64,000 nt of DNA, taken from positions 1 to 64,000 of the forward strand of contig JAGASK010000049.1 of the NCBI GenBank assembly GCA_017621815.1. The letters run 5' to 3'. Positions within the stretch are counted from its first letter, which is position 1; every line of letters begins with the position of its first letter. The position numbers and the translations under genes are program-made. This document shows positions 2,498-35,576 of this stretch, piece after piece. This DNA comes from Lachnospiraceae bacterium (GTDB lineage: Bacteria; Bacillota; Clostridia; Lachnospirales; Lachnospiraceae). Below the pieces are notes generated by a model that was not told where the DNA came from, searched no databases, and saw only the letters and a list, made by a program, of their open reading frames with translations.

Positions 2498-2534
2498 GTT
2501 GCCTAAAAACTGATGATGAAAGGAGAAACAAAGC

Positions 2535-3005: not shown

Positions 3006-3021
3006 TGAAAGGGGATAGACT

Positions 3022-3258: not shown

Positions 3259-3263
3259 TATCA

Positions 3264-3512
3264 ATGAAAAACTTATTAGAGAAATTGTATAAAAAGGTAA
3301 TTTACTACGGAGAGGAATACATGCAGTCAGGAAAACGACTTGATGAAGAAGTGCGTAAACTTTTAGAACCATACAGGAGCAAATTAAGCCAAAGTGAAAT
3401 TGAGGAACTACAAAACCTTATATATACCGCAAGCTACACCGCCCAATATGAAGGGTTTCGTTTAGGAGCAAAAGCGGTTGTGAATATGTTAATAGACATA
3501 CTATCTCATTAA
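3264..3512 (+). CDS. Small helical protein, DUF6809-like
   Basis: 82 aa. The pattern of an N-terminal MKNLLEKLYKK, a charged middle (LLEPYRSKLSQSEIEELQNL) and a C-terminal GFRLGAKAVVNML resembles the small DUF6809 proteins frequent in clostridial mobile elements; this is recognised by eye only. It begins 5 bases after the previous stop, with GAAAGGAAATAATATCA as ribosome binding site, and closes the operon. The repressor gene on the opposite strand ends only 4 bases beyond it. Function unknown. Confidence 0.65.
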   Translation: MKNLLEKLYKKVIYYGEEYMQSGKRLDEEVRKLLEPYRSKLSQSEIEELQNLIYTASYTAQYEGFRLGAKAVVNMLIDILSH

Positions 3513-3515
3513 AGG

Positions 3516-3833
3516 TTACAGGACTTTAGCTATCCTTAAAAGGGTTTCTAATTTGGCATTATCCATATCTTTAATTGCATTAAATAATTCTTTCTCGATT
3601 ACAGAGGTCGGATTATGATATTCATTTCCTAACAAATAATCCATGGTTACATCTAAAGCATTACATATACCTACAAGCAGAGTAAGGCTAACCTTTACTT
3701 TGTTGGTTTCTATGTTGCTGATATGGCTGACATTTACACCTGTCTTTTCGGCAAGATATTCTTGTGTCAGCTTTTTATCACTTCTGACCTCTTTTATTCG
3801 TTGACCGATTACACCGAAATCGAGTTCTCTCAT
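3516..3833 (-). CDS. XRE-family transcriptional repressor
   Basis: 105 aa from ATG 3833. An upstream in-frame GTG at 3842 is possible, but it overlaps the ribosome binding site (AAGAGAGGTGG), which is well spaced for the ATG. Residues about 8-65 form a Cro/CI helix-turn-helix (IGQRIKEVRSDKKLTQEYLA, then VNVSHISNIETNK). The C-terminal 40 residues are a helical tail, probably for dimer formation. It is transcribed towards the J-domain operon and divergently from the gene at 3989. This arrangement suits a repressor controlling itself and the membrane/Rep genes, keeping the element quiet. Confidence 0.9.
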   Translation of the reverse strand: MRELDFGVIGQRIKEVRSDKKLTQEYLAEKTGVNVSHISNIETNKVKVSLTLLVGICNALDVTMDYLLGNEYHNPTSVIEKELFNAIKDMDNAKLETLLRIAKVL

Positions 3834-3842
3834 TAAAACCAC

Positions 3843-3988
3843 CTCTCTTGCTTATTGGTGTAATTATATTATTTGTTTAGTTGTGGAATAATAATCTAAA
3901 GCTAGAAATTATATAGCCCCACACTAATAAAATGTGGTAGAATGTCGATATAAATAAATGAAATATATTACGAAAGGATGTAGACGCT
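3843..3988. promoter_or_regulatory. Divergent control region between repressor and 3989 gene
   Basis: A 146-bp AT-rich gap between two divergent genes. An inverted repeat CCACA...TGTGG lies in 3921-3936 and another TTGTGG lies near 3879, making operator candidates for the adjacent XRE repressor. A TATAAT-like hexamer on the minus strand lies near 3865-3871. The site GAAAGGATG serves the 3989 gene. No start site can be fixed by eye. Confidence 0.4.
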
Positions 3989-4984
3989 ATGGCATATTTC
4001 AACAACCCTCGCACAGAGGAAGAACTAAAAGACCAATTCAGGAAATTACTAGCAAAATATGATTATCGTGACCCCAAGAATGAAAAATTGATATCTGCTA
4101 TCCGTAAAGAATATGATGAAAAATTATTGGAAATAAAGCGTGCAAATGGGTATCAAACCACATTTGAAAAAGTTTCCAACACCATAGAAAAAAAACTTGA
4201 TGAGGTTAAGAAAGCTAATGAAGCAGAAAAAGCTCGTATTGAAAGATTAAAAAATCACAGATACACAAAAGAAGAATATGTAAAACTCTATAATAATGTG
4301 AAACTCAACTTAAGCAATCTTATTCAAGCTCTTGTAATAGAAAACAAATGCACCAAGAATATTATCAATCGGTTAAACGAATTAGATAATGTAGGCTTCT
4401 ATCAGTGGTTTAATGCCCAAAGATTTTTTATTGCGGTTTCCGATGATGAGCTTATGGAAAAATATAATTCATCTCGTGAGATACTTGAATATGCTATTCA
4501 ATCAATCTCAAAACAAACCAAAACCAAATATGAAAAGAACTTAGAAATCATGGAAGAAGCCATGGGTAAATATTTCAGAGAATACTATCAGGCATGTTGT
4601 GATAAATACCTTGACCCTATTGAAATTGCAGAGTATGAAGTACAAGCACAGAAAGATATGAAATTAGCAAATTTACTAGCTGGCTCAAGCTGTTACACGC
4701 TCCCATGGATATTTATCTCCCTCATAGTAATGTTTATTTTTTCATTCATTTTCGGAAATTTAGCAGACCGTTATAGTACCTTCTTCGTAATATGCACAAT
4801 GGGAATAAGTGCTTTATTATCTATTCCTGTAGGTAATAAACTACGTAAAAAATCAAAGAGATTTAGCTATGCAACCATGGGTGCAAAGAAACAGCGTGCA
4901 AGGGTAACCCAAAGACAGAAATATGAAAAGGAAAGAAGTATTACGGGACTATTCCGAATCATATTAAGATTTTTAGGCTTATAG
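3989..4984 (+). CDS. Membrane protein with degenerate J-like N-terminus and coiled coil
   Basis: 331 aa, family not recognised. Residues 4-45 (EEELKDQFRKLLAKYDYRDP, then a helix ending IRKEYDEKL) align by eye with the J-domain of the 2535 protein, but the HPD motif is replaced by YRDP, so it should not activate Hsp70. A charged coiled-coil stretch covers about 50-90 and a helical middle 90-225. Two membrane helices lie at about 234-255 and 264-285, followed by a very basic tail (KKQRARVTQRQKYEKER). It starts after GAAAGGATGTAGACGCT. It and the small membrane protein downstream form a unit ended by a terminator at 5309-5349. It may anchor an element complex at the membrane. Confidence 0.7.
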   Translation: MAYFNNPRTEEELKDQFRKLLAKYDYRDPKNEKLISAIRKEYDEKLLEIKRANGYQTTFEKVSNTIEKKLDEVKKANEAEKARIERLKNHRYTKEEYVKLYNNVKLNLSNLIQALVIENKCTKNIINRLNELDNVGFYQWFNAQRFFIAVSDDELMEKYNSSREILEYAIQSISKQTKTKYEKNLEIMEEAMGKYFREYYQACCDKYLDPIEIAEYEVQAQKDMKLANLLAGSSCYTLPWIFISLIVMFIFSFIFGNLADRYSTFFVICTMGISALLSIPVGNKLRKKSKRFSYATMGAKKQRARVTQRQKYEKERSITGLFRIILRFLGL

Positions 4985-5028
4985 CAAGCACAAATTTATC
5001 CATACATAAAGAAAAGAGGAAATCTAAT

Positions 5029-5217
5029 ATGGGAATTATAATTTTTATTGGAATTATAATATTGCTTATTAAATGCTCACCAGACCCAGGTGGAGCAACA
5101 GCCAATATAATTGCTTTTGGTATTGAGGTTGTAATTACGATAATTGTCTTTGGTATCAATCCGATATTGGGTATCATTGTAGGCTATTTATTTCTTCGTA
5201 GTTGGGATAAGCAATAA
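5029..5217 (+). CDS. Small hydrophobic membrane protein
   Basis: 62 aa with two predicted membrane helices (about 2-15 and 27-55) separated by a short loop KCSPDPGGAT. No family recognised. It lies 44 bases after the larger membrane protein, has an AGAGGAAATCTAAT ribosome binding site, and is followed by a terminator, so the two genes are probably one transcript. Such tiny membrane proteins in mobile elements can be immunity, holin-like or complex subunits; the sequence does not decide between these. Confidence 0.6.
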   Translation: MGIIIFIGIIILLIKCSPDPGGATANIIAFGIEVVITIIVFGINPILGIIVGYLFLRSWDKQ

Positions 5218-5308
5218 CAATACGCTTTCGAGCAGATAACCTACTTACAATAATGATAAATCCGATATTTTAACTGAAAATGTAACATAACACTGCATTT
5301 ATAAGATG

Positions 5309-5349
5309 AGGAGATACTTCTATAATGACGAGGTATCTCCTGTTTTATT
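5309..5349 (+). terminator. Terminator after the membrane-protein pair
   Basis: AGGAGATAC (5309-5317) pairs with GTATCTCCT (5333-5341), a 9-bp perfect stem with a 15-base loop, followed by GTTTTATT. It ends the 3989-5217 transcript and separates it from the replication region. Confidence 0.7.
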
Positions 5350-5800
5350 CATTATCTCATGCCTTAATTTTGAGCCACCAAACCATAATATTTCTCATGT
5401 TTCTTAGGGATATTTTGACCTGTCAATCACAATCTTAAGCACCCTCTACTCCCCTATTCCCTGAAAGAATATACACCCCGAATTTTAAATTTGTCAGGGG
5501 GTACATCTATTTTTAGAAAATACATACTTAAGATATGAGTAATTAAGTAAGTGATACTCCTCATTCTTTAGAAGCCATATACGGATGAGAAAGCATATAA
5601 CGGCAGATATACCCCATTCCTCATCAGGGGGGGGTGTAAGGTATACGACAGGCTTCAAACCCTTGTAAATACTGAACAAATTAAGGTTTAGACTCTTAGA
5701 AACACTAACGGTTTACACAGTTATATAGTCATAATAATGAATGCAATGTAGTGTAAATTATGATATGATAAAATTCATTACAGGCAGGAGGAATACATAA
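5350..5800. other. Non-coding region upstream of the Rep-like gene; origin candidate
   Basis: About 450 bases without a convincing gene. It includes a strong G-run hairpin (TACCCC near 5606 against the GGGG run near 5627-5634), another C/G dyad (ACCCC near 5475 with GGGGGT near 5500), a GTAAATACTG copy at 5664-5673, and a 25-bp sequence (5703-5727) that repeats the one at 1528-1552 with one change. Rolling-circle initiators and MobT-type relaxases usually nick just upstream of their own gene, so this is the most likely origin or transfer site. The ribosome binding site is GGCAGGAGGAATACATAA. Confidence 0.45.
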
Positions 5801-7135
5801 ATGGTACATACATTGGAATTATCAAGAATGATAAGTGAAGAAACCTTTGAGAAACTATTAACAACACTCAAAGATATTCGATACAATGGCATTGCATGGT
5901 ACACACAATCATATGCAGACAAAGGTATCTCCATGGTCTGCTTGCGTAAATTCAAACCCTTGCGAAAAAATGAAAAGGGCGAAATGGTAATACTAGAAAA
6001 TGAACCATTCCAATACATGATTATCATGTCAATTAACATAGGTATCATGTTCGGTGCAGACGGCTACCACTCAACCAATGTATTATCATTTACTCCTGAT
6101 TTTGCTAAAGCCATTTATGATAATATCTTTGAGCAAATACCTGAATTAGAAGTAAATGCAGATTACAAGGATAAGGGTAATGAAATACTATGGAACACAG
6201 GCAAAGCTCCTCTTCTGCTAGAACGCTATTATGACTTAAATGCCTTCAAGCTACGCCGTATTGACTTTGCTTTTGACATAGCCACCACTCCTGAACAATA
6301 TATGCATTTGTTAGAATTGGGAAAGGGTATTCGCAGAAAATCATATGATAGGCTTTATTTTTCAGATATAGACATAGTTGATGAAGCAGAAGATATAGAT
6401 GATGATGAGCCTGATTTTGAGGATATGGAAGATTTATTTATTGAATATACTTCCAATACAAAATACCTTTACTATAAATCAAAATCCCTGAATATCAACA
6501 TCTATCTTAAAGGGGAACAGCTTAAGAAAAAGCAACTGATACCAGAGGATGATAATTCTTATGATTACCTTCGGTGTGAAATGCAAGTCAAGAAAAACAA
6601 GTTAAATAATATAAACAAAAAGTACGGCATTCACAGCAGAGCATTTCACAAAATGCCTATACCTGAAATTGAAGCAGAGATACTATCCTATTACATCAAT
6701 CAATTAACAGGCACAGGAACTTATGTAACGTACAATAGAGCCATTAAAACCATTGATAGCTATAATTTCAAGCCAAGCAAACAAAATCGCCTTAAAAGGC
6801 TTTTATACCTGATTACACAGAATAATGGACTCAAAGAAGTATTAGACAAAGTAGAGAGCGGAGTTATCACAGAATTAGGTGCAATGTCTACTGTCAGAAC
6901 ATACTTAAGAGAACTTCAAAAAATGGGTATCAATCCTGTAACCATATCAAGAAGTATGGAAAAGGGTACACCAAAATCAACCCTTATCAATACCACAGGC
7001 GGTAACAATCTATCAGAAGTTATAATACCCAATTTAATAGACCTTTTGACAGCATACACTCAACAGATAGAGGATGAGAAACAACAGGGACAGACACTTA
7101 CACAAGAGGAGTTAAACGAGATAGACAAAATATAA
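5801..7135 (+). CDS. Replication initiator/MobT-like protein (Rep_trans-like)
   Basis: 444 aa. The layout recalls the Rep_trans family (pT181-type Rep and MobT relaxases): an R-x-D-x-A-x-D motif (LRRIDFAFDI, about 151-160), a YYKSKSLNINIYLKGEQL segment (about 224-242) resembling the family's Y-x-GS-x-S then YDKG pattern, and LRCEMQVKK (about 256-265) resembling its RxExxL strand. An acidic insertion (about 190-213) separates the first two motifs. These proteins nick one strand at an origin through a tyrosine. This would let the excised element replicate or be mobilised. The match is by motif pattern, not search, and the catalytic tyrosine is not assigned with certainty. It follows a strong RBS and ends before a terminator at 7153. 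Confidence 0.6.
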   Translation: MVHTLELSRMISEETFEKLLTTLKDIRYNGIAWYTQSYADKGISMVCLRKFKPLRKNEKGEMVILENEPFQYMIIMSINIGIMFGADGYHSTNVLSFTPDFAKAIYDNIFEQIPELEVNADYKDKGNEILWNTGKAPLLLERYYDLNAFKLRRIDFAFDIATTPEQYMHLLELGKGIRRKSYDRLYFSDIDIVDEAEDIDDDEPDFEDMEDLFIEYTSNTKYLYYKSKSLNINIYLKGEQLKKKQLIPEDDNSYDYLRCEMQVKKNKLNNINKKYGIHSRAFHKMPIPEIEAEILSYYINQLTGTGTYVTYNRAIKTIDSYNFKPSKQNRLKRLLYLITQNNGLKEVLDKVESGVITELGAMSTVRTYLRELQKMGINPVTISRSMEKGTPKSTLINTTGGNNLSEVIIPNLIDLLTAYTQQIEDEKQQGQTLTQEELNEIDKI

Positions 7136-7601: not shown

Positions 7602-8414
7602 CTACAGCATATACCTGTACTTTCCTGCCTGATACCGCAAAGTCTCTTTTACCCTGTCCACCGCTTCCTTCGGATATAGGAAATCCCACCTGTCGACTTC
7701 CCTTATCATATCCTCCTTCTTCACCGAAAATTTCAGAAAGCTTCCATACAATTCATTTGCCGCATCAAGCTGTGCGTCAAAATCTCTTGAAAAGGGCTTT
7801 GCTACAATATTTTTCCTGCACTCTTCAAAGGATCTGCCCAAAAGAAAATCTTCTTTAATATCTGAGAAAAGAGAAAGACCCATATCAAAATAAGGGCATA
7901 ACTTAAATTTATCCTCATCCAGCTGATAAATTACTGCTATGTTATTTGTATGTCTGTCCTCATTGAGGAAAAAAGCATCCATTTCCAGCATTTTAGTTAA
8001 ATACTCTCCGAAATTCTCTAAACCTGTAAAATTAATCACCTGTTCCACTAAATATGCAATTCTGTCTTTTATCTCTGCTATATGTGCCAGCTCTTTTGCA
8101 AGACTCATGCCCGTATACTGTCTGAAGAGATGCTCCAGGGTTATAATCTCTTCCCGTTCTCCAAGAAAGTTTCTGCTCCTGCATCCTGTGAGCTTTTTGT
8201 TTTTGTATATAATAATAACCGGTTCATAAACAATATCATACTTAACACTGGACAGCTTTAATAAATGGGAAGTTACCGTTTCAGACATGCCTTCATAACC
8301 CATTTGGTCTGCCTTATACCACCAGTCTTCACTTTTCCATTTCATCTGATTCCCCTTTGAAGAATATCCTGTCCCCACTTCAATATTTTCATCATTAATG
8401 ATTATCTGTTCCAT
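7602..8414 (-). CDS. HipA-like serine/threonine kinase domain protein
   Basis: 270 aa, shorter than classical HipA (about 440). Kinase landmarks are visible: ATP-lysine candidate K34 and E45 in WYKADQMGYEGMSETVTSHLL, the catalytic loop FFLNEDRHTNN (Asp153, Asn158), and the metal-binding FDMG (Asp177), which replaces DFG. HipA kinases phosphorylate proteins such as glutamyl-tRNA synthetase and can arrest growth; the target here is unknown. It follows a helix-turn-helix gene by 30 bases in the same direction, the order expected for a toxin-antitoxin or kinase-regulator pair. The HipA N-terminal subdomain is missing. A non-toxic signalling kinase is an alternative. Confidence 0.75.
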   Translation of the reverse strand: MEQIIINDENIEVGTGYSSKGNQMKWKSEDWWYKADQMGYEGMSETVTSHLLKLSSVKYDIVYEPVIIIYKNKKLTGCRSRNFLGEREEIITLEHLFRQYTGMSLAKELAHIAEIKDRIAYLVEQVINFTGLENFGEYLTKMLEMDAFFLNEDRHTNNIAVIYQLDEDKFKLCPYFDMGLSLFSDIKEDFLLGRSFEECRKNIVAKPFSRDFDAQLDAANELYGSFLKFSVKKEDMIREVDRWDFLYPKEAVDRVKETLRYQAGKYRYML

Positions 8415-8444
8415 TAAAAACCCTGCTTTCCATAAAATATCAAT

Positions 8445-9023
8445 CTAATATTCAGGTCTGAAATAGCTAAGCTGTATCCACTGCTTATCCTCAGCCATCC
8501 TCCCTCTCGTCTTTTCAATAAGGGCAAGAGGGTCATAAGAGTCCAGCTCCAGATCCTTCAGAATATCTTTTATATTATCTCTGCCTCTTGGAAAACAGCG
8601 GCTTTCCAGAAAATACTGAAAATCCTCCCAGGTAGGCTTCACCTTTACTCCAAATGCACGGTGAAGCACATCATTGCATTTATTGATTACGGAAACCTTT
8701 TTGTCCTTAAAATTGACAAGAATAACGGAACAGAGTTTATCCTCACACATAAATTCCATTCTTAAATGATATTCCTGCATGGAGTCAAGCTGGTGAAATT
8801 CACGATTCAGGGCTGCCCACAAACGGTAGGCCGTATATATCTGTATTTCAGAGTCATCTTTTTCCTGCCTGTTCAAATAGGCAGACATTGTCTGCCTTGA
8901 AACTCCGAATTCCTCAGACAGCTTTTTAACAGATTCTCCCTTATCACGCCGCAGCCGCACTTCAACAATTTGCTCTTTTGTCAAACGTGGTTTTCTTCCT
9001 GCATTTCTTGTATTATCTGCCAT
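8445..9023 (-). CDS. Helix-turn-helix protein paired with the HipA-like kinase
   Basis: 192 aa from ATG 9023, chosen because AGGGCGGTGAG lies 4 bases upstream; the frame stays open further upstream but without a good site. Residues about 5-50 form a resolvase-type helix-turn-helix (RKPRLTKEQIVEVRLRRDKG, then VKKLSEEFGVSRQTMSAYL). The rest (55-192) is an unrecognised mixed domain. Unlike HipB it is not an XRE protein. It lies upstream of and next to the kinase gene, so it is probably the DNA-binding partner or regulator of the pair. No partner binding motif can be read directly. Confidence 0.75.
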   Translation of the reverse strand: MADNTRNAGRKPRLTKEQIVEVRLRRDKGESVKKLSEEFGVSRQTMSAYLNRQEKDDSEIQIYTAYRLWAALNREFHQLDSMQEYHLRMEFMCEDKLCSVILVNFKDKKVSVINKCNDVLHRAFGVKVKPTWEDFQYFLESRCFPRGRDNIKDILKDLELDSYDPLALIEKTRGRMAEDKQWIQLSYFRPEY

Positions 9024-9092
9024 TATTCTCACCGCCCTTTTTACCATTTTAGTTCTGCAAGGGCCATATGTCAACTAATTAATTTCTTTACA

Positions 9093-10388
9093 TTAAAATC
9101 TTACAATATCCCCATTATGCACTTCCTTTGTGGAGGAAATGATAATCCGGCTGTCTTTGTCCAAAACGCCTTCCACTGCTGCCCAGCTTTCATTCTCATC
9201 CAGCACCTTTACACTGATCTCTTCCACATAATACTCCACGCCCAGAATCCCTTCTCTTTCCTTTACAACATATACATAACTTCTGGTATCTTCTTTATGG
9301 AGGGCAAGGGGAGAAATACAACAGGAATATTTTTCCCCCTGCTCCGTATGGGACATGGTTCCCGACAGTCCCGGCATTCCCATTCCCTCCGGAAGATTAA
9401 TATAAATTTCATAGCTTCCCGGCATGGTTTCGCTTTCCGCCAGATAATCTACGGTAACCTCTGTTTCCCTGCTTCCATCCAGCTTTAATGACACAGTATC
9501 ATTCAGTCCTACATAACTTTTCTGCTCCCTGTCAAGAACTGCTTTAAACTGGCAGGGAACTGAATCATCGGCAAACAGCATTGCTGCGGATTCGGGAATT
9601 CTGCTTCCTGCATCAATATAAATATCCGTAATCAGTCCGTCCCTGGGGGCTGTAATCAGTCCGTCCGCATTTTTAATTGCCTGATACCGGGCTAAATCCT
9701 TCTGCATATCGGAAAGCTCTAATTGATAAGAAGATAATGTGGCATCCTCATTTTCGGGAAAAAGTATGTCTTGCACATTTCTTTCCGCTTCTTTTATGGC
9801 ATTATCCCTCGCCCATTTGGCATCCGCTTCCGCATAGGCAGCAGACTGCAAAGCATCCTTCAGTTCCTCATCCGTTCCGCCGTCCTGATTTTCAATATGG
9901 TTTTCCGCCTGATTTACCTCCTCTGCCGCTCTTCCCACCAGAGTATTATTATACCGTGACAGTGCATCGTAATCCTCTCTTGCCCTTTCTTCCTCCAGCG
10001 CCTTTTTCTGCCTTGCAAGCTCTTCATTTTCCAAAATTGTATTTATCTGAAGCTGCAGCCTGGAAATCTCTGTCTGCTTTTTTGCCATGATTTCATCCAG
10101 GTCATCCATATCCACGGTAAAAAGCACGTCCCCTTCTTCCACCCTGTCTCCTACCTGAACCATAAGCTTATTTACACGAATCCCGCTTAAGGCAGTAACC
10201 GGGTTTTTATCCCCCGCCACCACGATTCCTTCCGCTTCTACCTTGTGCCCCACATATTTCTGCTCGGCAGAATCCACATTAACTATCGGCAGCCTTGAAG
10301 CATAAATACTTTTGGATATGATTGTGCAAAGCCACATCAAACATAAAAACACAAAAAATCCCAATAAAATCTTCTTTTTTCCCTGCAT
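9093..10388 (-). CDS. HlyD-family membrane fusion/adaptor protein
   Basis: 431 aa. One N-terminal membrane helix (about 6-27). The two halves of a barrel-sandwich (lipoyl-like) domain are visible, GIRVNKLMVQVGDRVEEGDVL (about 68-90) and ITAPRDGLITDIYIDAGSRI (about 245-265), separated by a long coiled-coil hairpin (about 98-235) and followed by beta-barrel domains. Such adaptors normally work with an ABC or RND exporter, yet none is adjacent. It is instead last in an apparent operon of two sugar-type permeases (22-base gap) and a solute-binding lipoprotein. It may connect that complex to the cell wall side or act with a distant exporter. The function is inferred. Confidence 0.82.
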   Translation of the reverse strand: MQGKKKILLGFFVFLCLMWLCTIISKSIYASRLPIVNVDSAEQKYVGHKVEAEGIVVAGDKNPVTALSGIRVNKLMVQVGDRVEEGDVLFTVDMDDLDEIMAKKQTEISRLQLQINTILENEELARQKKALEEERAREDYDALSRYNNTLVGRAAEEVNQAENHIENQDGGTDEELKDALQSAAYAEADAKWARDNAIKEAERNVQDILFPENEDATLSSYQLELSDMQKDLARYQAIKNADGLITAPRDGLITDIYIDAGSRIPESAAMLFADDSVPCQFKAVLDREQKSYVGLNDTVSLKLDGSRETEVTVDYLAESETMPGSYEIYINLPEGMGMPGLSGTMSHTEQGEKYSCCISPLALHKEDTRSYVYVVKEREGILGVEYYVEEISVKVLDENESWAAVEGVLDKDSRIIISSTKEVHNGDIVRF

Positions 10389-10409
10389 TTTTTACTTCCC
10401 TTTCACTTC

Positions 10410-11282
10410 TTATTCTTTAAGACCCGAATAAATAATTCCCTGTTCCAGATAATCCTGCCCCCAGACAAATACAAACACTGCCGGAATCAACGTAATGATA
10501 GAAGCGCAAAAAGCATAACCGGCCTGCGCCCAGGTAATCTCGGGCAGGTACAGGGATAAGGGCCATAAGGATTTATCCTCCAAAAAAGCCATGGGCTGTT
10601 CCATTAAATTCCAGTATTCCAAAAATCCCAGCACCATCGCTGACAGAAGACCGCTTTTTCCCAGTGGCATTCCAATTTTCAGAAAAATGGTAATTTCTCC
10701 TGCCCCGTCTATTCGTGCTGCCTCACACAGCTGCATGGGAATGCACCGAAAACCCCCATACGTAAGAAAAACAGGAAAGGTGGAAAACACTGCCGGCAAA
10801 ATCACCGCCTCATGGGTATTAAGCAGCCCCAGCCTGTTTAATACAAGATAACTGGAAAGCATGGTTACCTGAAAAGGCAGCAGCATGAGCACAACATAAA
10901 GTCCGAAAAGCGCTCTGCTTCCTTTTACCTTATATACTGCAAAGGCCCACGCCGCAGGTACTCCTGCTATAAGCTGCCCTGCCAGAATGCATCCCGTCAT
11001 TTTAACAGAGTTCCAAAACAAAACAAAAAACTGTGGTGTCAAAAAAAGCAGCTTTCCGTAGTTTTCAAAGGTGGGATAATCCGGTATCAGCTTCCAGCTG
11101 ATATATTCCGTTCCTTCCGTATAAATCGGAGACAAGTACTGCTTTAATTCCCAGCCCCCCATTACGGAGCCTGTTATCAGCAATATTACCGGCATACATA
11201 CAAAAACCGCCGGCAAAAGAAGAAGAAAAGCTGGCGCTTCTTTTTTTATTTCTTTTATTTTCACATTCAGATATTTCATCAT
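10410..11282 (-). CDS. ABC transporter permease, carbohydrate type (MalG-like)
   Basis: 290 aa with about six membrane helices. The cytoplasmic EAA loop reads CEAARIDGAGEITIFLKIGMPLGKSG, the contact site for the ATPase in sugar importers of the CUT1 class. It follows the partner permease by 12 bases, so the two form the channel heterodimer. No ATPase gene is in the window, which is normal for Gram-positive CUT1 systems that share an MsmK/MsmX-type ATPase. The substrate is not evident: no glycosidase lies in this operon, and an HlyD-like adaptor does. Confidence 0.88.
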   Translation of the reverse strand: MMKYLNVKIKEIKKEAPAFLLLLPAVFVCMPVILLITGSVMGGWELKQYLSPIYTEGTEYISWKLIPDYPTFENYGKLLFLTPQFFVLFWNSVKMTGCILAGQLIAGVPAAWAFAVYKVKGSRALFGLYVVLMLLPFQVTMLSSYLVLNRLGLLNTHEAVILPAVFSTFPVFLTYGGFRCIPMQLCEAARIDGAGEITIFLKIGMPLGKSGLLSAMVLGFLEYWNLMEQPMAFLEDKSLWPLSLYLPEITWAQAGYAFCASIITLIPAVFVFVWGQDYLEQGIIYSGLKE

Positions 11283-11294
11283 TTTTCCTCTTTC

Positions 11295-12182
11295 CTAGAC
11301 TTCCGGTTTATCCCACAAATGCTGCAGAACCATAATTACCGCAAATAAGAATCCGCCCACACAGACCGCTGCTGCCGCCATCTTGTCAAAATCAAGGTTG
11401 ACAAACCAGTTGTTAAACAAATGCTGCAGAAGATAAATATCCTGCTCGGGATATGAGCCTGCCACCAGATAAGCTTCCCTGTAAATTTTAAAAGAGTTTA
11501 AAAAGGAAAGAATGACTATAGTATATAAACTGCCCTTTAAATTCGGCAGCACAATTTTAAAAAAGCACTGCCGCCCGCCTGCCCCGTCCACTTTAGCTGC
11601 TTCCAGCAGTTCATTAGGAATTCCTAAAATTCCTGCCAGCCACAAAACTACCGTATACCCGGTATTTTTCCAGACATAACTGAATACCAGCACCCAGAAA
11701 GCTGCGCTGCTTCCCAGATAATCCTTATGTATTTCTCCCCATAAGCCGGTCCATTCACCCAGCCGGGTCAAAAACAGATTTAAAAAGCCCTGCTTATAAA
11801 AAAACATTTTCCACACAATTACAATGGTTGCCGTAGGCATGGCAAGCGGAAATAAATACAAAGATTTTATTAACCCCGCATTTTTTAATTTGCTTAAGGG
11901 AAATGCGATAATAAGTCCTGTCACCACCAGCAGCGGTATACAAACTATGGTAAACCGGGCGGTATTTTTTACTGCCAGTAAAAACGCCTGATTCGTAAAA
12001 ATTGTCTTATAATTCTGAATTCCGTTAAACTGATTTGTTACAGCTGTTGTAAAAGACCGCCGCACCACATCCAGAAACGGTATCAGCACAAATATCATTA
12101 CTCCCAAAAAGCTGGGGAGCATAAAAAGGAAAAAAGCTCTGTCCGTTTTGTTTCTGCCCGTTTTAAATCTGCGCATCCTCAA
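11295..12182 (-). CDS. ABC transporter permease, carbohydrate type (MalF-like)
   Basis: 295 aa, about six membrane helices, EAA loop LLEAAKVDGAGGRQCFFKIVLP. It pairs with the permease at 10410. The predicted start is TTG 12182, with AGGAG 9 bases upstream; the next in-frame ATG (12176) lies too close to any ribosome binding site. It is preceded by the propeller/solute-binding lipoprotein with a gap of about 70 bases. It is likely one half of the membrane channel for whatever that lipoprotein binds. Confidence 0.88.
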   Translation of the reverse strand: MRMRRFKTGRNKTDRAFFLFMLPSFLGVMIFVLIPFLDVVRRSFTTAVTNQFNGIQNYKTIFTNQAFLLAVKNTARFTIVCIPLLVVTGLIIAFPLSKLKNAGLIKSLYLFPLAMPTATIVIVWKMFFYKQGFLNLFLTRLGEWTGLWGEIHKDYLGSSAAFWVLVFSYVWKNTGYTVVLWLAGILGIPNELLEAAKVDGAGGRQCFFKIVLPNLKGSLYTIVILSFLNSFKIYREAYLVAGSYPEQDIYLLQHLFNNWFVNLDFDKMAAAAVCVGGFLFAVIMVLQHLWDKPEV

Positions 12183-12255
12183 ATTATGTTACTCCTTATA
12201 CAGGAAGAGATTTCCAAGCGGTGTTACTGCCGCTTTGAAATCCCTTCTCCAGTTA

Positions 12256-14631
12256 TTATTCCGCCATGTAGAGAGAAACCTTCTTTTCAATATTGCTTAT
12301 TGCTTCTTCAAGACTCCTCTCTCCCTGCATATATTTTGCTCCTTCCCCATATACCGCTTCCTCTAACATGCTGTCCGGTACATAAGGAATATTCGCCGCA
12401 TTCACCCACTGACGCAAAACCTCCGTCTGCTGTGCATTCATCCAGTATACTTCCAGGGTTACCTCTATTCCTTCACTATTACCTATTGTCAGATATGAAT
12501 AAGGTTCATCCTCGGATATATAAAAATTCATATCAGGAAGCAGATTTTCCTCAAAAGCGGCTTTATTGACTGAGAAGTTTCCGCCTAAAACCCCATTTTC
12601 TTTCCCAAGGAGCACTGAAAGCAGTTCCTTTGCTCTACTTACATTTTTTGATGCTGCGTTAATGCCTGCCAGGGAATCCGCCCAGAATACATGCTCAGTC
12701 TGTCCGTTCATAAGAATGATTTCATTATCTTCAAAACCCTTAACGCGGGGTACGGAGGTTACTTCTGAATAAGCATAAGCATAGCTTAATGTACCAACTG
12801 CTAAACCGGCTCCTTCCATCATATAATTCATTTCATCAATCCCACTTCTGAAATAATCACTGTCCTCATATGTAACCCCATAATCTGCCATATAAAACTG
12901 ATTCAAGTTTTCATAAGATTCAATCGCCTCTTCGGAAAGCCCATCCATCTGAGCGTCATAAATTCTCTTGCAGCAGGTCAGAAACTCCGCAACCGCTTCC
13001 CGGTTCAGTTCCCCTTCTTCCGTCTTCCATGCAGGAACGCAGGCCATTGAAAACAGCTTCATAATCCCCTTTTCCGAACAGACTCTGAGCAAATTCTTTT
13101 CCTGATTGTCCTTTCTCAGCTCTTCCATTGCCTCTGCTATTCCTTCAAGGCCGCTCATCTGTGAGACGTACTTTTCTTTACCCAGTATTGCAGGCAGTTC
13201 AAACTCACAGGGTATGGTATATATCCCGTCATCCGTCCTGAAGGCCTCCACTATGTTGGGCAGCAGCTGCGCCTCTCCGCTTAAGCCGTCAATATAAGAA
13301 CTTAAATCAAGCAGCAGGCCCTTTTCGATATAAGAGTCCACCGGCATATCATCAAGTATCAGCAAATCCGGTCCGTTTCCTGCCATAATCTCCGTATTCA
13401 GCTTCTTAAGGGCATCTTCCCTGGTAATGGAGCTTCCCTCTTCCATTCCGATTTCATACTCTACATAAACCTCGGGATTAGCCTCCTGATAGAGACTGAT
13501 TGCCCGGCGCAGTATGCTGTTATCCTTCAAGCTATAGGCTTTTACGCTTTCGGTGGGTACTGTAGGCACCTCAGGATGATAAGTAAAGCGAACCAGTCTT
13601 CCCTGATTAAATAAAGCCAGAAATTCATTATTTTCAAGGGCTGTCATTGACAAAAGGCCGTAAGCGGGATTATTGAAGGTACACAGGCTTCCGTCTATTA
13701 CCTGCTCCATAACGCTGCCGCCTATGACATGGCGGTGCAGCCCTTTTTCTCCTGCCAGATAAATCACATCCTCTTCCTCATTATCCGGGAAAAAATACAG
13801 ATCAAACCAACTGTTACCGTTAAAACTTCTGTTTCCGTAATTCTCATTGACAAAATCGTTTAATACCTCATCCTCTATGTATTCCTTCTTTTCCATATCA
13901 TAAATGAGCAGACTGTCATAATAATAGCCGTCTATTATCATCTTACTTCCCACAAACTGAATCAGCTGCGCATTTCGGTCCAGAGTAAGAAATTTTTCAC
14001 TGCTTCCGTCTTCTTTTACCTCATAAATATTGCCCCCAAGAGTTCCGGTAAAAATCCTCCCGTCTTCTGTAATTGAAACCAACCAGGGATATTTATCATC
14101 TTCTGTCAGGGAAATCTCTGCAGGAATTTCCGTGCCGTCCGGCTTTATTACTTTCAGCACAGGCTTGAAATCATCATCACCTTCACCGGCATCATAAATA
14201 ACAACTGTCGTACCCTCCGCTCCTACTGCCAAATCCAAAATATATGTTTCATCTTCTATCATTCCGGTACGCCAGTCTCTTTTATCTGTTTCCCAGGTAA
14301 TTCCATTGTCCTTTGATGCTATAAAATCCACATATTCATCTGTGATTACCAGATTTCCGTCTGCCAATTTGAAAATCTTATTATTATAACCGGAAATACC
14401 GGCATCCAATAAATCCGTAACATCCTCAAGATAACGTCCCATTGCCACATTATCCGCATATTCTCCGGCCTCTGCCCCGTTTACCCCTGAATTATCACTA
14501 TTATCGGTTGTTTTCCCCTCCCGGCTGCTGTCATTTACTCCTGTATCGCCGCATCCGCATATTGCCGTTAACAGCAGACAAAACAACAACATTAGCGATA
14601 AAATTCTGCTTACTCCCTTACTTTTTCTCAA
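12256..14631 (-). CDS. Lipoprotein: propeller-like N-terminal half fused to a solute-binding domain
   Basis: 791 aa, far longer than the usual 400-550 for sugar-binding lipoproteins. The signal peptide ends in LLLTAICGCG; Cys27 is the likely lipidated residue. An acidic serine-rich linker follows. Residues about 60-360 show repeated short blades (for example VSITEDGRIFTGTLGGNIYEV) like a beta-propeller sensor or exo-enzyme fold. Residues about 370-791 look like a family 1 solute-binding protein (AGNGPDLLILDDMP, IYTIPCEFELPAILGKEKY, FWADSLAGINAASKN). Start is TTG with AAAGGAGACTG upstream. It is first gene of the permease/HlyD operon. The fusion suggests binding of a polymer end or surface ligand; this is inference. 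Confidence 0.75.
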   Translation of the reverse strand: MRKSKGVSRILSLMLLFCLLLTAICGCGDTGVNDSSREGKTTDNSDNSGVNGAEAGEYADNVAMGRYLEDVTDLLDAGISGYNNKIFKLADGNLVITDEYVDFIASKDNGITWETDKRDWRTGMIEDETYILDLAVGAEGTTVVIYDAGEGDDDFKPVLKVIKPDGTEIPAEISLTEDDKYPWLVSITEDGRIFTGTLGGNIYEVKEDGSSEKFLTLDRNAQLIQFVGSKMIIDGYYYDSLLIYDMEKKEYIEDEVLNDFVNENYGNRSFNGNSWFDLYFFPDNEEEDVIYLAGEKGLHRHVIGGSVMEQVIDGSLCTFNNPAYGLLSMTALENNEFLALFNQGRLVRFTYHPEVPTVPTESVKAYSLKDNSILRRAISLYQEANPEVYVEYEIGMEEGSSITREDALKKLNTEIMAGNGPDLLILDDMPVDSYIEKGLLLDLSSYIDGLSGEAQLLPNIVEAFRTDDGIYTIPCEFELPAILGKEKYVSQMSGLEGIAEAMEELRKDNQEKNLLRVCSEKGIMKLFSMACVPAWKTEEGELNREAVAEFLTCCKRIYDAQMDGLSEEAIESYENLNQFYMADYGVTYEDSDYFRSGIDEMNYMMEGAGLAVGTLSYAYAYSEVTSVPRVKGFEDNEIILMNGQTEHVFWADSLAGINAASKNVSRAKELLSVLLGKENGVLGGNFSVNKAAFEENLLPDMNFYISEDEPYSYLTIGNSEGIEVTLEVYWMNAQQTEVLRQWVNAANIPYVPDSMLEEAVYGEGAKYMQGERSLEEAISNIEKKVSLYMAE

Positions 14632-14676
14632 CTTTACAGTCTCCTTTCATTTCAATAATTGCCTGAATCAATTATT

Positions 14677-15195
14677 TCAGGCTATATAATATATTACTGC
14701 CTTATCAGCCTTAAAGTCATTTCCGTCAAAATTACCTGTCAGTTCAAGCTGCAATCCTTCTTTAATATCGATAAAACTGCCTTCCCTGACATCAACATCA
14801 GCACCTCCGTTTTTAATTGTTTTTACCTCATATTTTGTATGTTCAGAAAAAATCACCTGAATCAGTTCTTCATCTTCGCTGCCTTCTGCCGGTAAAACTG
14901 CCGTATCCATTTCATCTGTACCAGATGATGATTCTGTAAATATCCGGCTTATAGTTACACTGTTATCCCCAATACTTCTTACATCACCTAAAATCTCTTC
15001 TGCTCCTTCAGAATTGCTTTCATCCTCTGAAAACTTTTCTGTTCCTTCAGAACTGCTTTCATCTTTATCTTCAGGAATTTCTTCTGTATCAATCTGCTCA
15101 ACCGTCAAAGGAGCCGATGATTCAACCATGCTTCTGCAACCTGCTGCCAATAATAATGCCATGCTGAAAAATATGACTATTTTATATTTTTTCAT
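14677..15195 (-). CDS. Small lipoprotein with OB-like C-terminal domain
   Basis: 172 aa. Signal peptide MKKYKIVIFFSMALLLAAGC with lipobox LAAGC (Cys20). Residues 35-70 are an acidic linker with an internal duplication (DESSSEGTEKFSE then DESNSEGAEEILG), also seen at DNA level. The C-terminal part (about 70-172) has the strand pattern of DUF5666-like domains (VRSIGDNSVTISRI, VIFSEHTKYEVKTI, ELTGNFDGNDFKADKAVI). It lies upstream of the propeller lipoprotein on the same strand and divergent from the two-component system at 15395. It may be a cell-surface sensor or a target of that system. Family assignment is by pattern only. Confidence 0.65.
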   Translation of the reverse strand: MKKYKIVIFFSMALLLAAGCRSMVESSAPLTVEQIDTEEIPEDKDESSSEGTEKFSEDESNSEGAEEILGDVRSIGDNSVTISRIFTESSSGTDEMDTAVLPAEGSEDEELIQVIFSEHTKYEVKTIKNGGADVDVREGSFIDIKEGLQLELTGNFDGNDFKADKAVIYYIA

Positions 15196-15248: not shown

Positions 15249-15318
15249 CCTCTAAAAATCCTCTAAAAACACTTTTTATAAACTTAACATTACCTAAAGA
15301 ATAATTAGAGAATAATTA
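15249..15318. promoter_or_regulatory. Paired direct repeats, OmpR-type operator candidates
   Basis: CCTCTAAAAA occurs at 15249-15258 and 15260-15269, and AGAATAATTA at 15298-15307 and 15309-15318. Both pairs have 11-bp spacing, one helical turn, which is how OmpR/PhoB-type dimers bind. The site lies between the divergent lipoprotein (minus) and the response regulator (plus). TATAAT-like hexamers at 15332 and 15345 follow towards the regulator. This suggests autoregulation plus control of the lipoprotein/permease operon. Confidence 0.5.
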
Positions 15319-15394
15319 AAGATTACTATGCTATAATCAAATGATATAATGGATTAAAACTCCTATGGAAATGAATTCGGGAAAGGGCAGAATT

Positions 15395-16069
15395 ATGAGA
15401 ATTCTATTGGCAGAAGATGACAAACAGCTGAACAAAACTCTTACTTATCAGTTAGAAACCGAAGGTTTTAGTGTGGATTCCTGCTTAGACGGAGAAGAAG
15501 CTTTATTTTACGGCGAACAGAATATTTATGATATTATACTCTTAGACAGAATGCTGCCCCGCATGGAGGGAACAGAAGTGCTTACTTCTTTAAGAAAGAA
15601 GGGCATTACGGTACCGGTTATCCTGATTACGGCATTGGGCACCTTATCTGATAAAGTAACCGGACTTGACCTTGGCGCTGATGATTATCTGGTAAAACCT
15701 TTTGCGTTTGAAGAACTTCTTGCCCGAATCCGCTGTGTTGCCAGAAGACCCCATACTCTCACCCAAAATGATATTCTGACTGTTTCCGATATCACCTGGA
15801 ATGCTTTCGAATATATACTTACAGGTCCTTCGGGCAGCTGTACCCTTTCTAAAAAGGAAGCCGCCCTTCTTGAAACCTTTTTACGGGCAAAAGGGCAAAC
15901 CCTGCCAAGAACTACCCTGCTTTTAAAAATCTGGGGACCCGACAGCAATGTGGAAGACGGAAATCTTGACAATTATATTCATTTTTTACGCAGACGTCTG
16001 CAGATAACAGGAAGCAGACTTCAGATTAAAACGGTGCGCGGCATTGGTTACAGCCTGCAGGAGAAATAA
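15395..16069 (+). CDS. OmpR-family response regulator
   Basis: 224 aa from ATG 15395, chosen because AAAGGGCAG precedes it and MRILLAEDD is the canonical receiver start; the frame is open for 10 codons upstream. The receiver domain has the acidic pair (AEDD), phosphorylated Asp51 (IILLDRMLPR) and the conserved Lys (DDYLVKPF). The C-terminal winged helix (about 125-224) contains LSKKEAALLETFLRA and the VRGIGYSL end. It overlaps functionally with the kinase 3 bases downstream. It probably controls the divergent lipoprotein/permease/HlyD operon through the direct repeats at 15249-15318. Confidence 0.93.
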   Translation: MRILLAEDDKQLNKTLTYQLETEGFSVDSCLDGEEALFYGEQNIYDIILLDRMLPRMEGTEVLTSLRKKGITVPVILITALGTLSDKVTGLDLGADDYLVKPFAFEELLARIRCVARRPHTLTQNDILTVSDITWNAFEYILTGPSGSCTLSKKEAALLETFLRAKGQTLPRTTLLLKIWGPDSNVEDGNLDNYIHFLRRRLQITGSRLQIKTVRGIGYSLQEK

Positions 16070-16072: not shown

Positions 16073-17374
16073 ATGTTTAAAAAAGTACACTTGCGGCTTA
16101 CCCTGTTATGTGCAGGAATTACCGCTGTTATCATGATTATTATGTCCCTTTGCTACCTGTACGTTTCAGAAAAAGGACTCTATAGAAACCAGTTTCAGTC
16201 ATTTAAGAATGACATCAATACTATTACCACCAATTTAGAACAACAATCTGTTATTTCCATGGAATGGCTTTCCAAAATGGAAGCACAGGGAAAATATCTC
16301 TTTTTTGTTTTGGATAATGGAATTCCGTTCCTATACAATCAATTAAAGGATTATGAAGGGGAATTACCCAAAAAGCAGCTTTTAGACGAATGCCTGAACG
16401 CCTATAATAACACGTTTATGATTGAACCTTCCGTTCAGACAAGCTCTTCCTATGTATCCTATCATTTTGAATTTGAATTCACTTCCGATATTACGAATAT
16501 GAAATATTTCAGCAGCGTTATCAATATGGGAAAAGCATCCTCCTGTCTGGAAATCATTGTGCTTTCCTCCCAGGAATCCCTGGAAAAGCAGATATGGACA
16601 CAGCGCCAGCGTTTTATCCTGATTGATATTACTGCAATTCTGCTCCTTACCGTTTTTTCCTTTATTTTTACCGGGAAGCTTTTACGACCTATTATGGAAA
16701 ATCAACAAAAGCAGATTCAGTTTGTCTCTTCCGCTTCCCATGAGCTGCGCACTCCTCTGGCAGTTATACTATCCGCAACGGAATGCTGTAAAACAGCTCC
16801 TTCAGATAAACGGGAAGGTTTTTTAAACACAATTCAAAACGAGGGACTGCGCATGTCTTCCCTGATAAATGATATGCTTACTTTATCCCAATCCGACAAT
16901 CACCGCTTTTCTATCCAGATAAAACCTGTTGAGCTGGATACGCTGCTTATGAATTCCTTTGAAGCTTTTGAACCTCTGGCAAAAGAAAAATTCATTACTT
17001 TTAATATCCGCCTGCCGGAAGAAGCACTGCCTTTATGTTCTGCGGATCCGGAACGCATCAGTCAGGTGGTTTCCATACTTCTGCATAATGCCATCAGCTA
17101 TACTCCTGATAACGGAAAAATAGAATTAGCCCTTTCCCATGATAAAGAACATTTCTGTATATCAGTCAAGGATAACGGAATCGGAATTTCTGATGAGGAC
17201 AAAGAGAAGATATTTGACCGCTTTTACCGGGCAGAAAAATCCCGAAGCACCAAAGGGCACTTCGGGTTAGGATTGTCCATTGCTTATGAAATTGTAAAAG
17301 CGCACGGCGGTAATATTTTCGTAACTGACGCAGACGGCGGGGGAAGTGTTTTTACAGTTATGCTTAATACCTGA
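16073..17374 (+). CDS. Membrane sensor histidine kinase (partner of OmpR regulator)
   Basis: 433 aa. Two membrane helices (about 7-30 and 183-205) enclose an extracytoplasmic sensor domain of about 150 residues. There is no clear HAMP; the H-box ASHELRTP (His223) follows soon after the second helix. The ATPase domain shows the N-box (HNAISYTPDNG), G1 (VKDNGIGIS), F-box (IFDRFYRAEKS) and G2 (GLGLSIAYEIV). It starts 3 bases after the regulator, with CAGGAGAAATAAATT as ribosome binding site, so the two are cotranscribed. The signal is unknown, perhaps the ligand of the neighbouring surface lipoproteins. Confidence 0.93.
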   Translation: MFKKVHLRLTLLCAGITAVIMIIMSLCYLYVSEKGLYRNQFQSFKNDINTITTNLEQQSVISMEWLSKMEAQGKYLFFVLDNGIPFLYNQLKDYEGELPKKQLLDECLNAYNNTFMIEPSVQTSSSYVSYHFEFEFTSDITNMKYFSSVINMGKASSCLEIIVLSSQESLEKQIWTQRQRFILIDITAILLLTVFSFIFTGKLLRPIMENQQKQIQFVSSASHELRTPLAVILSATECCKTAPSDKREGFLNTIQNEGLRMSSLINDMLTLSQSDNHRFSIQIKPVELDTLLMNSFEAFEPLAKEKFITFNIRLPEEALPLCSADPERISQVVSILLHNAISYTPDNGKIELALSHDKEHFCISVKDNGIGISDEDKEKIFDRFYRAEKSRSTKGHFGLGLSIAYEIVKAHGGNIFVTDADGGGSVFTVMLNT

Positions 17375-18369: not shown

Positions 18370-19881
18370 TTATCGGATTTTTCCCTGTTTCCAGCTTAAA
18401 TCTTTAAACTCAGCCTGATTTCCCTGCTCATCCACTGCATATAATCCCATCACCACGCCGGTAAAACCGCCTGCAACTTCCGAAGACAGATACTTCGTGC
18501 GGGCGCTTCCAAGGAAAATCCTCTCCTCTCCATCCCTTAAGTAAAAATAATATTTCAGGGAATCGGAATCTGCTTCCAGCCTGATTTCACTGCTGTCCTC
18601 CGGCAGCTTTATTTCTTTAAGGATTTCATGGACATCACCTACGGTCACACGAAGCACGGCTTTTGAAACACCGCCGCTCCTTATTACTGCCAAATCATAA
18701 TGCTGGTCTTCATCCATATAAAAAGTTATTCCGGCTTCTCCGGCATTTCCTCCTATGGTTACCCTCAGCTGCGTATCAAATTCTGACTGCCGGATTCCCA
18801 TAAAGGTTGGTGTGTCCGCTTCATCAAGGGTAATTTCCGTTCCTTTCAGTTTTAATACTCCGTTTTCAAACCTGTAATTTCCCCTGTGATAATCACGCAG
18901 ATAACACCATCTGGGATTTTCCGGATTCATATCCTCCGGGGATATATCATACAGCCCTTCCTTTCGAGAGTCTGCTGCAATATCCGCATCCAGCCATTCA
19001 GTTACAATACCCTTTTTCCCTGCGGTAAACCAGCCGTCCTCCTGCCAATACACAGGTGCCATATAAACCTCTCTTCCAAGATGATGATAAGGCTGCCACT
19101 CCCCAATCTGACGGAATCCAAGGCATACTATAAAATAATTTCCCTTTTCATCTTCAATCAAATCCCCATGGCCGATTCCCTGGATAATACTCTGATTTCC
19201 GCCAAGATTTCTGTTGGTAAGCACAGGATTTCCTGCAAAAGACTCAAAAGGACCAAAAGGCTCCCTGCTTCGTGCGTAAGTAATCATGTGTCCGTATTCC
19301 GTGCCGCCTTCCGCAGCCATCAGGTAATACCAGTCGCCGATATGATATAAATGAGGAGATTCCAGATAACGCCCGCCGTTACCGCCCCACACAGGAATAC
19401 TTTCCGTCAGTTTTTCCCCTGTTTCCACATTAATCTCACACTGCAGAATACAGGGATTGCCGTCTGCGCCCGTGCCGTTGCTGGTAAAATACACCTTTCC
19501 ATTATCAAATAAAAGGGATGGGTCAATGCCTTCCTGGTCCACAAAGATAGGGTCCGACCATTCTCCGCAGATGTCCTTTGTGAAAATATAAAAATTCTTA
19601 TTGTAGGTATTATTGTTTGTTACCATATAAAAGGTTCCGTCATGATACCGCAGAGTGGGAGCAAATACGCCTCCCGAGCTGGGAACCTGATGAAGCTCCA
19701 CCTGATTATTTCTGGTAAGACAGTGTCCAATCTGTTTCCAGTTCACCAGGTCCTCACTTTCAAAAACCGGAACTCCCGGAAAATACTGAAATGAACTGCA
19801 GGCAATATAATATTTCCCTTCTGCCTTACAAATACTGGGATCAGGATAAAAACCCCTGATAATCGGATTTTGAATTTTCAT
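18370..19881 (-). CDS. GH43 glycosidase (beta-xylosidase/arabinofuranosidase type)
   Basis: 503 aa with no signal peptide, so cytoplasmic. The five-blade propeller catalytic domain (about 1-300) shows general base Asp14 (FYPDPSI), the pKa-modulating Asp120 (EGIDPSLLF) and general acid Glu174 (RYLESPHLY). The C-terminal beta-sandwich (about 320-503) is like the one in GH43 beta-xylosidases, where it helps form the active site. Enzymes of this type release xylose or arabinose from short xylo-oligosaccharides. It is last of a three-gene unit (SBP, GH42, GH43), 18 bases after GH42. The exact specificity cannot be read by eye. Confidence 0.92.
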   Translation of the reverse strand: MKIQNPIIRGFYPDPSICKAEGKYYIACSSFQYFPGVPVFESEDLVNWKQIGHCLTRNNQVELHQVPSSGGVFAPTLRYHDGTFYMVTNNNTYNKNFYIFTKDICGEWSDPIFVDQEGIDPSLLFDNGKVYFTSNGTGADGNPCILQCEINVETGEKLTESIPVWGGNGGRYLESPHLYHIGDWYYLMAAEGGTEYGHMITYARSREPFGPFESFAGNPVLTNRNLGGNQSIIQGIGHGDLIEDEKGNYFIVCLGFRQIGEWQPYHHLGREVYMAPVYWQEDGWFTAGKKGIVTEWLDADIAADSRKEGLYDISPEDMNPENPRWCYLRDYHRGNYRFENGVLKLKGTEITLDEADTPTFMGIRQSEFDTQLRVTIGGNAGEAGITFYMDEDQHYDLAVIRSGGVSKAVLRVTVGDVHEILKEIKLPEDSSEIRLEADSDSLKYYFYLRDGEERIFLGSARTKYLSSEVAGGFTGVVMGLYAVDEQGNQAEFKDLSWKQGKIR

Positions 19882-19899
19882 ATGATGAGCTGCCTCCTT

Positions 19900-21924: not shown

Positions 21925-21953
21925 GCTTCCTCTCCTCGTTATCTTAAATTTTA

Positions 21954-35562: not shown

Positions 35563-35576
35563 ATGATGTCTCCCAT

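Follow-up and report, generated by a model that had tools for sequence, protein, structure and literature searches.

Two groups of described ATP-binding cassette (ABC) transporters are closest to the system considered here, a five-gene set located in a 64,000-nucleotide stretch of DNA from a member of the Lachnospiraceae (contig JAGASK010000049.1, positions 1 to 64,000; hereafter, the window). The first group comprises the CUT1 importers energized by MsmX or MsmK (YesOPQ, GanSPQ, MelECD), which share with the window system two permeases with EAA loops, a solute-binding lipoprotein, and an operon devoid of an ATPase gene, an orphan MsmX-type ATPase being encoded elsewhere in the genome. The window system differs from them in its standing HlyD adaptor, in the propeller present in its solute-binding protein (SBP), in its OmpR-type two-component system and in the absence of breakdown genes from the operon; moreover, most relatives outside the subclade of the window carry a protein with the periplasmic core domain (PCD) of MacB. 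With the second group, i.e. MacAB-TolC, YknXYZ and Spr0693-0695, the system appears to share an adaptor of the MacA/HlyD kind with an N-terminal transmembrane (TM) helix and, in relatives, the MacB/YknZ core. It differs from this group in its importer permeases and in the lack of a MacB-type ATPase and, in the proteins scanned, of FtsX; compared with MacAB-TolC and YknXYZ, its adaptor falls in a clade of its own, and both kinds are present in the genome of the window. The presence of an HlyD/MacA adaptor or of the MacB core domain is taken as a sign of export. Importer permeases combined with an extracytoplasmic multimer are also known from the Mce/Mla-type importers, and mycobacteria share an ATPase in trans; to our knowledge, the Mce/Mla protein families are unrelated to those of the window system, and the Pfam scan of the window proteins revealed no MCE family. 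No description of a CUT1 importer combined with an HlyD adaptor was found in the titles and abstract openings of the open-licence literature, subscription journals and preprints being outside this scope, and a prior description is possible. The window system is probably a CUT1 type I importer that MsmX energizes in trans and that is equipped with extracytoplasmic subunits derived from MacAB/YknXYZ, and the data, i.e. the parts, their linkage, the adaptor clade, the kind of ATPase adjoining the system in relatives and a regulatory repeat, all drawn from sequence and gene context, point to a mixed and unrecognised kind of bacterial transporter in many gut and other Clostridia.

A check of open reading frames (ORFs) found five minus-strand genes close together between positions 9093 and 15195, in the order small lipoprotein, 791-amino-acid (aa) lipoprotein, PermA, PermB and HlyD (Table 1). 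An initial annotation, made from the sequence without database searches, had described exactly this set, with no exporter, ATPase or glycosidase in it, and the Pfam scan agreed, revealing none of these three among the five ORFs, nor any MacB-type permease with core domain and FtsX. What that annotation had overlooked is the divergent two-component system, the MacB-core protein of the relatives and the MsmX-type ATPase of the genome.

Table 1. Features of the five-gene system and its regulatory region in the window (bit scores with Pfam cut-offs in brackets where given).
Feature	Position	Strand	Evidence
Small lipoprotein, 172 aa, accessory	14677..15195	-	ORF; lipobox LAAGC by eye
791-aa lipoprotein, propeller-like domain and CUT1-type solute-binding domain	12256..14631	-	ORF, TTG start; Pfam, alignment, PDB profile matches
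Propeller-like domain, about residues 60-360, approximate boundaries	13552..14454	-	Profile of 64 relatives matches PDB beta-propellers (designed Scone/Cake, 3hxj); Asp-box; absent as a block in short SBPs
Solute-binding domain, about residues 365-791	12259..13539	-	PF13416, 25.5 bits (27), residues 404-481; profile of 64 relatives matches CbpC (7x0o, E=3e-20), YesO, MalE
PermA, MalF/UgpA-type CUT1 permease, EAA loop EAAKVDGAGGRQCFFKIVLP	11295..12182	-	TTG start; PF00528, 50.5 bits, above cut-off; PDB matches SugA, MalF
PermB, MalG/UgpE-type CUT1 permease, EAA loop EAARIDGAGEITIFLKIGMP	10410..11282	-	PF00528, 47.6 bits, above cut-off; PDB matches AlgM2, SugB, MalG
HlyD/MacA-type adaptor, 431 aa	9093..10388	-	PF12700, 26.7 bits (25.1); PF13437, 26.6 (22.2); PF00364, 22.9 (22.1); NCBIfam RND_mfp, 73.1, below cut-off 94.9; PDB profile matches ZneB, EmrA, MacA; tree
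OmpR-family response regulator, divergent	15365..16069	+	PF00072 and PF00486; adjoins system in many relatives
Sensor histidine kinase	16073..17374	+	PF00512 and PF02518; adjoins system in many relatives
Likely response-regulator box TTTAGAGG-N3-TTTAGAGG, 11-bp repeat, upstream of operon	15249..15267	-	Sole zero-mismatch match in assembly
Weaker box of like kind, ATTAGAGA and ATTAAAGA, 11 bp apart, facing the regulator genes	15304..15322	+	Upstream-region word scan

The features of a CUT1 importer are found in the window, namely two permeases of the MalF/MalG type, their EAA loops and a solute-binding lipoprotein. Within the EAA loop, residues E187, A188, A189 and D192 are conserved in at least 90% of 33 PermB proteins, and G193 and A194 in all of them. 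A strict EAA pattern fits 70 of 95 PermA and 59 of 93 PermB proteins; few ordinary CUT1 permeases fit it (1 of 7 and 0 of 6, respectively), and this pattern is therefore narrower than the EAA loop.

The joining of an HlyD adaptor to an importer had been the central proposal of the initial annotation, which named the conservation of HlyD with the permeases in relatives as its test. Apart from the genome of the window itself, relatives were taken from four samples, i.e. the family (D1, loci L031-L070), named genomes (D2, L071-L148, the best 80 of at least 438 relatives), the class as recruited by the SBP (D3, L184-L194) and the loci found with the permease profile (D4, L198-L237); near-identical loci, e.g. 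L074/L075 and L129/L130, are not independent. Among the loci examined, an HlyD gene lies on the same strand and at most three genes away in 125 of 129 clade permeases (at least 225 bits, a cut-off set after the scores had been seen), which bears the proposal out. Three of the four exceptions (L041, L120, L222) end at a contig edge, and in L215 the HlyD gene is four genes upstream; among loci whose available downstream sequence amounts to 1.5 kb or more, the linkage is complete (120/120). The fairest subset, recruited by the permease profile only, gave 35 linked loci of 37, the exceptions being L222 (contig end) and L215, and of ten weaker, ordinary permeases only that of L235 is accompanied by a small HlyD-like gene. 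In a PermB tree with 83 rows, a branch supported at 100 sets the nine ordinary permeases apart from all the others, and the only other rows without HlyD are L041 and L222, both cut loci. The order of the genes may change with the set being kept, as in L184/L185 (SBP-SBP-HlyD-PCD-PermA-PermB) and in L215 (HlyD-PCD-SBP-PermA-PermB). As a control, 30 loci were recruited with the canonical adaptor of the genome; one of them (L182) was of the CUT1-linked kind, and the other 29 had an ATPase motif in their short flanks in 24 cases and a CUT1 permease in none. A mere chance neighbourhood of importer and adaptor gene is refuted by the 125/129 linkage, which extends over many families of the class and persists when the order is changed, and has practically no probability left; the region does hold chance neighbours, the ORFs at 7602-9074 not being conserved with HlyD, but no evidence for chance was found in the case of the adaptor.

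As for distribution, the family was sampled with 150 genomes, one per genus, of which 35 encode relatives of the 791-aa protein, the own genome being among them. The 40 loci fetched, which cover 41 of the 46 SBP places outside the own genome (one more came later), have PermA, PermB and HlyD side by side in 30 cases; L035 and L041 are cut or mis-called, and eight have neither. In the named-genome scan, whose titles are mostly of Lachnospiraceae or its genera, 50 of 78 loci contain all three genes, in 23 the stretch shows no permease and no HlyD, and the last five are accounted for by contig ends, a truncated PermB or an ordinary permease. The SBP profile found relatives in at least 12 of 291 genomes of the class sample (three candidates scored per genome). 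With the PermB profile, 51 places at 237 bits or more were found in 391 genomes of the class, spanning 18 family codes; at E<=1e-50, 59 of the 391 genomes have a match, the weaker ones being ordinary permeases as far as inspected, and three further genomes of the phylum sample reach at least 358 bits. Loci were taken from all but six of the 51 places (G207, G234, G307, G349, G441, G458, one genus), together with four weaker ones, and the name Clostridia for these class and phylum samples is deduced from named near relatives. An importer-permease clade spread over 18 family codes has an adaptor at hand in every examined locus whose sequence suffices.

The adaptor of the window has an N-terminal TM helix, as judged by eye, a lipoyl match at residues 72-95 and an HlyD_3 match at 245-319, and the stretch between the two matches is predicted to be the hairpin. 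In the adaptor tree, 70 adaptors of CUT1-linked loci are separated from 31 adaptors of loci lacking CUT1 permeases by one change (SH-aLRT 99), and in an enlarged tree 76 from 31, again by one change (SH-aLRT 97); it should be noted that this is a quick tree whose 31 other adaptors were gathered with a canonical query, so that the split may partly reflect sampling. As far as these sequences tell, the CUT1-linked adaptors are one clade of single origin, outside the canonical adaptors. An ATPase or MacB-type gene is present in the short flanks of 28 of the 31 other rows, and L175, L176 and L180 have neither.

Outside the subclade of the window, HlyD is usually followed by a gene for a membrane protein that contains the periplasmic core domain of MacB. 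A profile built from 24 such PCD proteins found the core domain of YknZ (E=5e-8) and MacB in the PDB, and PF12704 was above cut-off in 3 of 10 PCD proteins in a first scan and in 7 of 7 in a later one. The PCD protein is present in 68 of 129 loci overall, i.e. in 28/31 of the family sample, 7/8 of the class sample recruited by SBP, 32/37 of the permease-profile sample and 0/51 of the named set, which represents the subclade of the window. On the adaptor tree, the loci lacking it form one clade nested inside those bearing it, with two changes in all, and a single loss is therefore the simplest account if the root is placed on the canonical side. The genome of the window offers a useful internal comparison, as it contains both a second CUT1-HlyD system with a MacB-core protein (L151, G000:C16, about 32.4-42.2 kb, in the order SBP, PermA, PermB, HlyD, PCD, SBP) and a canonical pump (L152: ATPase, HlyD, FtsX/PCD). 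Adaptor and PCD proteins both belong to efflux-pump families, and one might accordingly suspect a MacAB-like pump for the efflux of drugs or peptides, with a changed membrane part. However, no FtsX domain was found in any of the 17 PCD proteins scanned, the canonical protein of the genome showing both PF12704 and FtsX; no MacB-type ATPase was seen beside CUT1-HlyD systems; the adaptors lie outside the canonical clade; and the ATPase and the SBP are of the importer type. We therefore regard an efflux pump as very improbable.

The initial annotation had also envisaged a surface sensing or uptake machine spanning the cell wall. Uptake remains the best reading, but the wall-spanning part is not supported, and the adaptor is reduced in four genomes (L189, L227, L230, L235). 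These have intact mini-adaptors, 122-252 aa long, whose matches to the adaptor profile (512 positions) are confined to its beginning, up to 45-65, and its final part, from 422-445 onwards; by this alignment, they consist of the TM helix and the membrane-proximal domain. No PCD gene is in view at these four loci. The second copy of L221 is unlike them in that its small adaptor is split over two ORFs with a PCD gene behind, and split adaptors are also present in L213, L218 and L075. The mini-adaptors suggest which part of the adaptor matters: the membrane-seated part may be essential, and the tube an extra. A wall-spanning conduit was therefore rejected as the essential function, although the adaptor of the window itself is full length.

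At L189 (362-7109), the set consists of a propeller-less SBP, PermA, PermB, the 122-aa mini-adaptor and an MsmX-type ATPase; genes for a C39-peptidase ABC exporter, another ATPase-like protein and a small GG-motif peptide directly precede it. In L193 and L200-L203, all of one genus, the system follows genes for proteins of about 301 and about 730 aa; the larger protein, in the two cases scanned, matches DUF6449 (over the cut-off in L202, below it in L193), and we take it to be ABC-2-like. As a lead at most, such neighbours, each confined to single lineages, might suggest that the ligands are envelope-active peptides and not sugars. They also bear on the idea of a core that does not import, in which ATP-driven motions of PermA/PermB would drive the adaptor and the MacB-like core outside the membrane, for instance so as to displace or remove something in the cell envelope. 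The SBP is a standing part of the system, and SBP-bearing type I systems import as a rule; in addition, the PCD is missing from the whole subclade of the window, and the adaptor is reduced in other relatives, so that a non-importing core seems to us improbable. Speaking for it, besides the DUF6449 protein or bacteriocin-exporter genes adjoining in single lineages and the PCD in 68 of 129 loci, is the derivation of the extracytoplasmic parts from the MacB-type pump, described in PMC5985334 as a mechanotransmission machine acting outside the membrane.

The absence of an ATPase gene from the operon is unremarkable, since an MsmX-type ATPase is encoded elsewhere in the genome (L197, contig C44, about 193.7-194.8 kb, with an OB_MalK domain). 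In seven relatives, an ATPase adjoins the system; it is located directly after the PCD gene in L210, L212, L231, L232 and L233, after the mini-adaptor in L189, and one gene later, cut by the contig end, in L213, where both adaptor and PCD are split. The adjoining ATPases, which account for three changes among the CUT1-linked rows of the adaptor tree, are of the MsmX type, sharing 56-71% identity with the orphan ATPase of that type in the window's genome and 30-35% with the MacB-type ATPase encoded there; that of L210 has OB_MalK and TOBE_2 domains. Considering also that orphan MsmX-type ATPases serve several sugar importers in Firmicutes, as stated in PMC7658222, MsmX acting in trans is the most likely energy source of the window system.

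The N-terminal half of the 791-aa lipoprotein had been proposed to be a separate domain, and this is confirmed by relatives in which it is absent as a block. Eight of ten SBPs of 380-520 aa (L189, L190, L215, L216, L218, L227, L232, L233) lack the propeller in this way; they align to the SBP profile from about position 336-393 through the end and, except for L215, also weakly match its signal-peptide part. A contig end truncates the remaining two (L073, L208), which retain the N-terminal part. The propeller therefore is an optional insert. In 64 aligned rows, the lipid-anchor Cys27 is invariant, and the Asp-box S-x-D-x-G-x-x-W is present in 62. Two to four SBPs are encoded in 15 of 50 complete stretches of the named-genome set. 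With regard to the small lipoprotein, the lipobox supports the lipoprotein assignment of the initial annotation, but not so the OB-like fold, for no Pfam family was above cut-off (PF23139, E=0.17, under cut-off); similar proteins, searched with a model from a single sequence, lie near the SBP in 20 of 78 loci.

The divergent OmpR-type pair of response regulator and histidine kinase belongs to the unit. It is present in the stretch in 73 of 129 loci (own 1/2, D1 23/31, D2 43/51, D3 1/8, D4 5/37), and 43 of the 81 loci with such a regulator gene have two TTTAGAGA-like words (one mismatch allowed per word), 10-12 bp apart, within 200 bp upstream. The spacing is exactly 11 bp in 58 pairs, no other single spacing occurs in more than five, and 50 dinucleotide shuffles gave a mean of 0.12 loci and a maximum of 1. 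In the 3.5-Mb assembly, the sole match without mismatches is the box preceding the operon of the window; with up to two mismatches there are 10 matches, as compared with 26 for a reversed control pattern, and the other nine are therefore likely due to chance. This arrangement suggests that the regulator of the window binds the repeat box.

A sensing complex in the first place, with the propeller-SBP, the permeases and the adaptor detecting an envelope-active ligand and signalling to the histidine kinase, and transport being minor or absent, would resemble the transporter-coupled two-component systems. It is kept in play by nine loci (L100, L104, L105, L106, L108, L110, L111, L114, L117) in which the SBP, in one to three propeller-bearing copies, and the two-component system occur without a permease; the concentration of the pair in near relatives, the single perfect box in the genome and the lack of a catabolic set nearby are further points in its favour. 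On the other hand, the pair is mostly missing from D3 and D4, while permeases, adaptor and PCD stay; in addition, the EAA loops persist, and some operons include an ATPase gene. We consider this alternative possible but rather unlikely.

If, as we favour, the system imports, PermA and PermB would have acquired parts of an efflux pump of the MacAB/YknXYZ type as standing extracytoplasmic subunits. The propeller-SBP lipoprotein would catch the ligand and hand it to PermA/PermB, and the orphan MsmX-type ATPase of the genome would supply ATP in trans. The TM helix and the membrane-proximal domain of HlyD would seat it on the two permeases, and there it may steer the docking of the SBP or guard the entry; its lipoyl/hairpin part, together with the MacB-core protein in relatives, would form an outer vestibule; the two-component system would turn the operon on via the 11-bp repeat box. 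Formation of the complex, direction of transport, role of the adaptor and service by MsmX are thus what we infer from these sequences. If this is true, annotation of these genes as 'efflux adaptor' would mislead, and the system would be a testable case for adaptor function in cells without an outer membrane. More speculatively, and with considerable doubt, one may think of a separate ABC architecture, old in Clostridia, in which the ATP-driven motion of the importer core works the MacA/MacB-derived parts outside the membrane; these would have been reduced stepwise, from a MacB core to none (as in the window), and then to an adaptor with only TM and membrane-proximal domain.

Some observations weigh against the importer reading. 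The PermB scores run from 188 to 261 without a clear gap around the 225-bit cut-off, and L234 (218 bits) is without HlyD and L235 (208 bits) has a small one. Five of the first ten PCD proteins were under the PF12704 cut-off and two had no match. The nine loci with an SBP beside a two-component system, and with neither permease nor adaptor in the stretch, indicate that the SBP also works without the transporter. Finally, the flanking genes (127 ORFs chosen from 65 loci outside L071-L148, 113 of these ORFs being scanned) show no sugar-breakdown set: no family occurs in more than five of the 113 proteins, and GH31 (two) is the sole glycosidase among the 25 families listed of 170. A sugar substrate is therefore not supported, and a dedicated sugar-use locus was rejected.

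Directly downstream of HlyD, the ORFs at 7602-9074 encode two proteins, one of the helix-turn-helix type (209 aa, TTG start) and one HipA-like (270 aa, weak PF07804 match below cut-off); they are perhaps a separate pair, and were rejected as parts of the system. The left edge of the window (254-7135) looks like a mobile element, with a tyrosine integrase (254-1474) and a resolvase (1777-2346); a DnaJ match there falls slightly short of the cut-off, and a 444-aa protein, which has no Pfam match, looks by eye like a replication protein. On the other side, GH43 and GH42 genes (18370-21924) form a separate gene group close by; the regions 18370-23690 and 32497-45269, with GH43, GH42, GH3, GH31, SBPs, two ordinary CUT1 permeases and a His_kinase-type sensor, are conventional sugar-use genes, near the five-gene system but apart from it. 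The window may be near the replication origin, as a DnaA gene is located at 62270-63682.

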